Source: Phycisphaerae bacterium (GTDB lineage Bacteria > Planctomycetota > Phycisphaerae > UBA1845 > Fen-1342). Taken from it: a DNA stretch of 64,000 nt. Shown piece after piece: positions 36,714-38,405 of the stretch. A model generated the notes under the pieces. It searched no databases, had not been told where the DNA came from, and saw only the letters and a program-made list of their open reading frames with translations. A program made the position numbers and the translations under genes. The stretch spans positions 62,001 through 126,000 of the forward strand of contig JAGNKU010000001.1 of NCBI GenBank assembly GCA_017999985.1, given 5' to 3'. Positions within the stretch are counted from its first letter, which is position 1. Every line of letters starts with the position of its first letter.

Positions 36714-37199
36714 TTACGTTGGCCTGGCTTCTTCCCATTCCTGCAGTAACGTGACCAAAGCCGACCCCACAGGACCGCGCGCGTACAACTCGCCGTTGGG
36801 CGCATCGTACACGTACAACTCGTCTCCCTTGAGGCCGTAGTACCACACATCTGCAGCGTCCATGAAGAACTCAATGGAAGGATCGAGTTGCCCGGCATCA
36901 CAGACCTCGGGCTGCGCTCGCAGTCTGCTGAGCGAGTAGAGCCCGTAGATCGTCGGACCCGCAACCACCGCCAGCTTCATCGAACCCTGAAGAAGACTCC
37001 CGCCGATGAAGTCGCCGTACACGGGTTGAAGCAATAACGGGGTCGTTTCCGACGCCGGTCGCGCCCCAGCGAGTCTGTACAATAGGCAGCGCCGGGCCTC
37101 GCGCTCCTCGTTCCAGCGATGCTCCACAAGCATCGCGCCGGATACCACCAGCGGCTCGCCGTAGCGCTCTTTCAACACCTGCTCTACCAAGCCGCTCAT
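36714..37199 (-). CDS. hypothetical accessory protein
   Basis: A 161-residue cytoplasmic protein I do not recognise with confidence. The C-terminal part (SIEFFMDAADVWYYGLKGDELYVYDAPNGEL then LVTLLQEWEEA) recalls SUKH/SMI1-type proteins, which often serve as toxin immunity or regulatory domains; this is only an impression. ATG 37199 is used, with a weak ribosome binding site. Codon use differs from its neighbours, with many A/T third positions (TTG, TTA, GTA, CTT, AGA). It sits between a secreted hydrolase and a structured non-coding region, so recent acquisition or rapid evolution is possible. No partner toxin is visible. Confidence 0.6.
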   Translation of the reverse strand: MSGLVEQVLKERYGEPLVVSGAMLVEHRWNEEREARRCLLYRLAGARPASETTPLLLQPVYGDFIGGSLLQGSMKLAVVAGPTIYGLYSLSRLRAQPEVCDAGQLDPSIEFFMDAADVWYYGLKGDELYVYDAPNGELYARGPVGSALVTLLQEWEEARPT

Positions 37200-37301
37200 G
37201 GTCAGCAATCTCAACCGCAACCGTCCCAGCGACCAAGCACACCCTTTGTGGCTAGTCGAAGTATAACGGCCAGTCGCATAAGAACGCGACATGCCCCACC
37301 A

Positions 37302-37453
37302 ACCGCGGTGCGCGGTGGGCGTCCGTCAGCCCTACGGGCTGACGAGGAGGCGGGGTCGGGGGCTGCTTCCTCCGGGGACTCGAAGTCCCTGGCGACTCGC
37401 GTATGCCCTCCGGGCGTAGGATGCCGCAAGCCCGCGCGACACACGCGCGGGCT
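37302..37453. repeat. cluster of five short perfect hairpins
   Basis: Five inverted repeats follow each other. (1) ACCGCG-gtg-CGCGGT at 37302-37316. (2) CGTCAGCCC-tac-GGGCTGACG at 37324-37344. (3) GGGACT-cga-AGTCCC at 37375-37389. (4) GCCC-tcc-GGGC at 37405-37415. (5) AGCCCGCGCG-acaca-CGCGCGGGCT at 37429-37453. Four have three-base loops. The stems are perfect, and no reading frame through them looks coding. Confidence 0.8.
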
Positions 37454-37455
37454 CC

Positions 37456-37534
37456 TTGTCACCTTATCACGTTATCACCTTCTCACTCCCACGGGGCTCA
37501 CATTGTCACCTTGTTACCTGCGCACCTTGTCACG
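37456..37534. repeat. degenerate tandem octamer repeat, consensus TTGTCACC
   Basis: Eight octamers occur in two blocks. Block one is TTGTCACC, TTATCACG, TTATCACC, TTCTCACT (37456-37487). After 15 bp, block two is TTGTCACC, TTGTTACC, TGCGCACC, TTGTCACG (37503-37534). The array begins 2 bp after the fifth hairpin. Composition (A/T at fixed positions) contrasts sharply with the surroundings. Confidence 0.8.
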
Positions 37535-37646: not shown

Positions 37647-38405
37647 ATGCCCGCGACCCTCGACATCATCTTCGCCATGCCGCACCCGGACGACGTGGAA
37701 ATCACCTGCGGCGGAACCATCGCCAAGCTGGTCCAGCTCGGCCACCAGGTCGGCGTCCTGCACATGACCAACGGCGAGCCGACGCCGCGCGGGACGCCGG
37801 AGATTCGCGCCCAGGAACTCGCGGCGGCATCCCATGCGCTGGGCGTCACGCACGTCGAGACGCTGCATCTGACCAATCGTGAGCTGATGGACGGCCCGCC
37901 GGCGCGCTACGCCGTCGCCACCGTCTTCCGGCGTTACCGCCCGCGGATCGTGGTCGGCATGGCGGGCCGCACGCCGGCCGCGTCGCCGGACCATTACCAG
38001 GCCCAGCTCATCCTGGAAGGCGCGCGGTTCTACGCGCAACTCACGAAGTGGGACGACCGTTTCGACGGTACCGCGCCACACCGCATCGACTGGCTCTGGT
38101 ACCGCCCCGTGTCGCTGGGGGCCGAGCAGGACAACTGGCCGGCGACGTTCGTGGTCGATGTCAGCGACGTCTACGAGCAGAAAATCGCGGCGATTTCCGC
38201 GTACCAGTCGCAGTTCGACGAGCAGCGCCTGGCGCGCCTGCTGCATCGCGTCCGCGCCCGCGATGCGAACGACGGCGCACGGGCGGGCTTCGAATACGGC
38301 GAGCTGTTCACGCTGCCGCATCCGCTGCCACTGCGTGACCCCGTCGCCCATTTCCGGGACCTGGGCCCGCTAACGCTGCCCGCGTATCCGCCGCGCTCCG
38401 GATGA
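37647..38405 (+). CDS. LmbE-family N-acetylglucosaminyl deacetylase (BshB1-like)
   Basis: A 252-residue zinc-dependent deacetylase of the LmbE/PIG-L family. The metal and catalytic motif MPHPDDVEITCGG lies at the N-terminus. HMTNGEPTPRGTPEIRAQE and SPDHYQAQ supply further conserved positions, with the His of SPDHY as the likely third metal ligand. The family includes BshB1 (bacillithiol synthesis) and antibiotic or GlcNAc-PI deacetylases. Bacillithiol is a plausible guess, but bshA and bshC are not in the window. ATG 37647 has GGAGAG upstream. No signal peptide. Confidence 0.88.
   Translation: MPATLDIIFAMPHPDDVEITCGGTIAKLVQLGHQVGVLHMTNGEPTPRGTPEIRAQELAAASHALGVTHVETLHLTNRELMDGPPARYAVATVFRRYRPRIVVGMAGRTPAASPDHYQAQLILEGARFYAQLTKWDDRFDGTAPHRIDWLWYRPVSLGAEQDNWPATFVVDVSDVYEQKIAAISAYQSQFDEQRLARLLHRVRARDANDGARAGFEYGELFTLPHPLPLRDPVAHFRDLGPLTLPAYPPRSG

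Follow-up and report, generated by a model that had tools for sequence, protein, structure and literature searches.

Octamer arrays in a Phycisphaerae intergenic region as probable solo copies of the ends of IVP elements

Among the described systems closest to the repeats considered here is the 23S rRNA intervening sequence (IVS) of Coxiella burnetii, which carries 7-nt tandem repeats (GACAGAT) 5' of an S23p open reading frame (ORF), has a 28-bp terminal stem and is cut by RNase III (PMC4990558). Short tandem heptamers are also on record from cyanobacteria, from Xanthomonas (GGGNATC, with four units preferred; PMC4692102) and from Beggiatoaceae (TAACTGA; PMC4679880), and GTAG/CGTC-tagged repetitive extragenic palindromes (REPs) are known together with their REPIN forms and RAYT genes (PMC3733652). 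Here we describe a segment of a 64,000-nucleotide stretch of a Phycisphaerae genome (the window), in which five small hairpins are followed by two blocks of tandem octamers (Table 1). We conclude that the octamer blocks are probably gene-less, partnerless copies of the arrays that end a family of elements encoding the '23S rRNA intervening sequence protein' (IVP; PF05635/TIGR02436), which may recognise those ends.

The link between arrays and IVP was found from both directions. In other phyla, an IVP gene lies inside array pairs spaced 380-470 bp apart, and all six IVP loci on 120 array-selected contigs of those phyla sit between arrays. Conversely, IVP genes were picked without regard to repeats and the complementarity of each gene's own left and right flanks was compared with that of mismatched pairs, revealing that 53 of 61 genes from the window's order beat 95% of mismatched pairs (median score 45 versus 17; only 4/61 in direct orientation), as did 24 of 29 from Cyanobacteria, Bacteroidetes, Chloroflexi, Acidobacteria, Elusimicrobia and Planctomycetes. 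Two sets of control genes gave flank scores above 25 in 0/19 and 1/21 cases. The arms had a period of 7 nt in 72 arrays, 8 nt in 60 and 6 nt in one, with both arms sharing the period at 60 of 61 loci and four or five units being commonest. While the units are highly diverse among elements (GGTGATAA, GTGGGAAC, AGGGATCA, AACAGGG, TCAGCTT, AGGGAGT and many more), their length tracks the IVP tree, with 9 changes compared with 17.4 after shuffling (0/500 shuffles as low). A complete IVP element spans ~450-600 bp and comprises an array, a gene for a four-helix bundle and the reverse-complement array. At one locus (L235:4891-5207), the IVP gene is divided between two reading frames, by decay or frameshift, and its arrays are intact.

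Inverted heptamers also flank IVP genes on plasmids of Nostoc, Calothrix and Anabaena. In Nostoc edaphicum the element separates the genes for the two ribonucleotide reductase subunits, and in Anabaena sp. 90 it lies between cas6 and cas4. Cyanobacterial plasmid IVP genes located between cas6 and cas4 (L452, L455) bear inverted heptamer arrays on both sides and, for this reason, look like inserted elements rather than cas genes.

The octamers of the window fit this family in form and type. They are tandem, their period falls within the 7-or-8-nt range of IVP-element arrays, and their unit is of the same type as the arrays flanking an IVP gene elsewhere in the window genome (G000:C4:153733-154271), where the unit kinds of IVP elements also occur as arrays without an IVP gene. 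The first-pass annotation had recorded two blocks, with a total of eight octamers near TTGTCACC, starting 2 bp after the hairpins; these are present at 37456-37534, and Tandem Repeats Finder detected both blocks. It had also allowed for an unconserved sequence found once per genome, which the octamers are not: in the window genome, examined as stretches totaling 1.59 Mb, two adjacent TTRTCACC octamers (one mismatch) matched 47 times, compared with 0 for a reversed control, and ~50 places resembled the window octamers. Copies retain variants by position (for example, GCTCACAT TGTCACCT TGTTACCT GCGCACCT TGTTACG), as do the units of array B, whose position-specific variants are common to other copies in the genome, which argues that arrays spread whole and were not formed anew. 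The combination of arrays A and B was found once more, at C5:162856-162939 (86% identity over 84 bp). An inverted partner lay within 200 bp of 20 of 49 distinct arrays in the order GGTRAYAA...TTRTYACC, compared with 2 in the opposite order. Across 60 related genomes the octamer pattern was patchy, with 168 matches in G006 and none in other genera, and a three-octamer pattern recurred in Planctomycetes, Chloroflexi, Bacteroidetes, Acidobacteria, Cyanobacteria and others across a collection of named genomes.

Two further arrangements were seen in the course of this survey. A ~190-bp dispersed repeat has a type-B array in its middle (L009, L010, L013, L021), one copy (L013) containing an additional stretch rich in 7-nt GCTGACN units. 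In the window genome, AGGGATCG and AACAGGG arrays stand side by side twice (C2:101205-101280 and C2:384993-385070), like arrays A and B of the window.

At one operon junction, IVP elements with matching arms and differing units are found in eight genomes from seven further genera and in the window's own; two species of one genus (G009 and G025) have GTGATAAA and GTGGGAAA arms there, with IVPs identical at 68 of 104 positions. In a search by the downstream gene, 11 genera, that of the window among them, had a filled junction (543-759 bp), whereas G021, G015, G004, G008 and G017 had an empty one (5-52 bp); some remaining genera held other sequence. The RNase P RNA of the window genome, which is of class A and otherwise normal, carries a 133-nt inverted octamer pair in its P12 loop; G002 and G010 carry inverted pairs of a different octamer, GTGGGAAC, in the same loop, which is short in G011 and others. 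The window arrays themselves sit between two protein-coding ORFs, not in 23S rRNA, and were absent upstream of homologues of the downstream gene in 14 of 14 relatives examined; the insertion is lineage-specific.

Complementary arms could also mean that the elements are RNA-processing cassettes, whose arms pair in the transcript so that RNase III excises the IVP segment from an operon mRNA with the same cut that releases the IVS from 23S rRNA, gene-less pairs then being RNA hairpins. The likeness of the RNase P insertions to rRNA IVSs agrees with this, as does the Coxiella IVS with its heptamers, 28-bp terminal stem and RNase III cutting (PMC4990558). However, mismatches between arms at 75 loci were G-U-compatible in 119 cases and A-C in 131 (sense strand; p = 0.49), so that selection for RNA pairing between arms was not apparent, and the window arrays, having no partner array, are unable to form a stem. 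We consider RNA processing unlikely. Because G-U pairs are not in excess, the arms are probably DNA ends recognised by a protein, for which IVP is the candidate; the two readings can be compatible.

If IVP bound the arrays without any mobility, they might be regulatory or structural DNA, that is, nucleoid- or regulator-binding sites kept near genes. Beggiatoaceae TAACTGA heptamers have been proposed as regulator sites (PMC4679880), and the position-specific octamers, regular unit number and intergenic locations would suit such a role. Binding sites kept in place are difficult to reconcile with patchiness among genera, a window site that is empty in relatives, a junction that is filled in some genera and empty in others, and insertion within RNase P RNA, making this explanation improbable.

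The hairpins fall outside the octamer family. All five that the first-pass annotation called perfect are present, although hairpin 4 is not strictly so because of one G-U pair. The segment 37285-37460 folds more stably as RNA than shuffled sequence (z = -3.5; 0/200 shuffles as stable), and a search of the window against Rfam found no match, in line with the earlier statement that no known RNA family explains it. Inverted 11-mers surrounding the whole segment were about as numerous as expected by chance, by our estimate. A covariance model built on 37366-37422 with four training copies returned three new matches, one of which adjoins a training copy, giving six loci in the 1.59 Mb (E <0.05). 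The element also aligned to C2:101331-101427 (blastn, 69% over 98 bp, E 1e-6). One copy is an exact GTAG REP form, GTAG-CCAGGGTCT-TC-AGACCCTGG; at the tag position, GTAG is found at C2:101354, GTTG in other copies and GTCG in the window copy. At four of six loci the hairpin element lies <350 bp from some 7/8-nt array, which is not chance because arrays with such margins cover ~2% of the sequence by our own arithmetic; hairpins do not, as a rule, accompany octamer arrays. Two other candidates were rejected: triloop hairpins are not enriched as a genome-wide class (25 versus 18 in Markov sequence; 400 kb, stem of at least 8) or next to octamer arrays, and CTGGC-NNN-GCCAG is not a constant array partner (3/10 near arrays, all on one contig, and 0 on others).

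Taken as a unit, the segment had been viewed as one composite non-coding element, possibly REP/REPIN-like. It is indeed composite, dispersed and non-coding, but its hairpins and octamers belong to different repeat families, the hairpins being mostly a different, REP-like repeat that accumulated in the same intergenic region, so that the composite in the window is a repeat-rich intergenic island. The REP likeness may hold for part of the hairpins, given the covariance-model copies and the exact GTAG-tagged form, and fails for the octamers. The window genome does contain seven Y1_Tnp (RAYT-type) genes (L296-L302), at least three of them with palindromic GTAG repeats on both sides, and mobilisation of REPs or REPINs by RAYT could thus be proposed for the entire segment. 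With no TTRTYACC array near any of the seven genes (0/7), and with octamers that have neither tag nor palindrome, we reject it for the octamers; it applies at most to the hairpins and is very improbable as an account of the whole. The palindromes at Y1_Tnp genes include GTAGGGTGGGC-ACC-GCCCACC, and GTAG hairpins recur in the genome.

Origin as a microsatellite by replication slippage on the spot, suggested by short tandem units and variable copy number, is already contradicted by identical variant octamers in identical order at many loci, by periods of only 7 and 8, by inverted partners and by linkage to one protein family. A translation-stop device, suggested by a stop codon in every full octamer variant on the GGTRAYAA strand, was dropped because many other IVP units have no stop codons.

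Within the preferred explanation, array ends would be recognised by IVP, for which a mechanism can be sketched. Of the solved structures, that of XCC0516 (2gsc) is nearest to IVP in sequence; PMC4990558 cites it as a homopentameric toroid. As a homologue of this pentamer, IVP may recognise the array of units at each end of the DNA, perhaps with one subunit per unit; the prevalence of four to five units is a clue to the pentamer. Together with host factors, it would permit copying or movement of the element and its gene-less derivatives. Among such derivatives, the window arrays would have lost the opposite arm and have little effect now; most likely, this copy is without present function.

Several observations weigh against this explanation. 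The window arrays have no inverted partner within ~2 kb and none of the six PF05635 matches in the window genome lies near the window, which is why we call them gene-less and solo. In the TTRTYACC-rich G006, G016, G025 and G026, no IVP with that unit was found among the genes fetched; array unit and resident IVP are thus not always matched, and we reject the expectation that same-unit arrays always imply a resident IVP of that unit. Annotated plasmids, with inverted arrays at 9 of 10 IVP loci by score and eye, form a small set whose scores are overlapped by those of mismatched pairs (95% at 31.6, maximum 54). No target-site duplication could be defined for the elements, and some clades have vertically occupied IVP sites, so present-day mobility may be low. 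IVP is not known to have a catalytic domain, its binding and mobility are predictions, and the genomes are mostly draft metagenome-assembled genomes.

On a wider scale, we tentatively propose, at a little below even confidence, that IVP/S23p genes form very widespread minimal mobile elements consisting of a non-catalytic pentamer and inverted 7/8-nt arrays read unit by unit. Dispersed short tandem repeats, familiar for decades from cyanobacteria, Planctomycetes, Chloroflexi and others, would be their gene-less arrays, and 23S IVSs the same elements in rRNA. Within open literature naming the IVP family, no title or abstract reported an IVP-array link, preprints and most subscription journals being outside the search; nor was IVP mentioned in PMC4679880 (intervening-sequence, S23 and four-helix wording) or PMC4692102 ('four helix'). 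Provisionally, and within the searchable literature, the Coxiella 23S IVS was previously the sole known case of a heptamer-flanked IVP gene. Two questions unconnected in that literature, the role of IVP/S23p and the origin of dispersed 7-8-nt repeats, are now linked, and a widespread but barely described element family provides a candidate explanation of the puzzling short repeats that many bacterial genomes contain. Because the IVP-array association is strong, the repeat recognised should be predictable from the IVP gene, making binding and movement directly testable.

Table 1 Coordinates of repeats and neighbouring genes in the window, and of related copies elsewhere
Feature	Position	Strand	Details
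Hairpin 1	37302-37316	.	ACCGCG-gtg-CGCGGT; 6-bp stem, 3-nt loop
Hairpin 2	37324-37344		CGTCAGCCC-tac-GGGCTGACG
Hairpin 3	37375-37389		GGGACT-cga-AGTCCC
Hairpin 4	37403-37419		TATGCCC-tcc-GGGCGTA
Hairpin 5	37429-37453	.	AGCCCGCGCG-acaca-CGCGCGGGCT; 10-bp stem, 5-nt loop; immediately 5' of array A
Degenerate copy of dispersed REP-like multi-hairpin element	37324-37422	.	Separate family from octamers
Octamer array A	37456-37487	+	4 units: TTGTCACC TTATCACG TTATCACC TTCTCACT
Octamer array B	37495-37534	+	5 units: GGCTCACA TTGTCACC TTGTTACC TGCGCACC TTGTCACG; first unit (37495-37502) degenerate, inside the 15-bp gap between the blocks; full units at 37503-37534
Upstream ORF	36714-37199, open frame to 37292	-	Divergent; start 37199 set by eye; Pfam search of 36714-37292 without match
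Downstream gene	37647-38405	+	Putative LmbE/BshB-like deacetylase, from reading the translation
New covariance-model matches	C1:527537-527599, 683248-683305, C2:384588-384646		E 2.5e-5, 8e-4, 0.03
Gene-less P12-loop insertions	L012:1491-1623 (G000:C19), L400, L413		Three genera, two units

With respect to known systems, the elements share gene-less derivatives and inverted ends with miniature inverted-repeat transposable elements and non-autonomous insertion sequence derivatives, but their ends are tandem arrays, the full element lacks a transposase and target duplication was not found. Like REPs and REPINs with their RAYT genes, they occur as dispersed inverted pairs with gene-less copies beside a single-gene source, and the hairpin portion of the segment is itself REP-like; unlike them, the octamer arrays are tandem, non-palindromic, untagged and associated with IVP rather than Y1_Tnp. 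The protein family and complementary ends are shared with 23S rRNA IVSs, as is a structured-RNA loop as insertion site (here RNase P P12, in gene-less copies), whereas the present elements lie mostly between protein genes, have very diverse units of 7 or 8 nt, include dispersed gene-less and solo arrays, and give no indication of selection for RNA pairing. Finally, the arrays resemble the heptamers of cyanobacteria, Xanthomonas and Beggiatoaceae in being intergenic, dispersed and usually of few units; the IVP-related terms searched for are absent from PMC4679880 and PMC4692102, and IVP genes here sit within inverted heptamers, as on the Nostoc, Calothrix and Anabaena plasmids.
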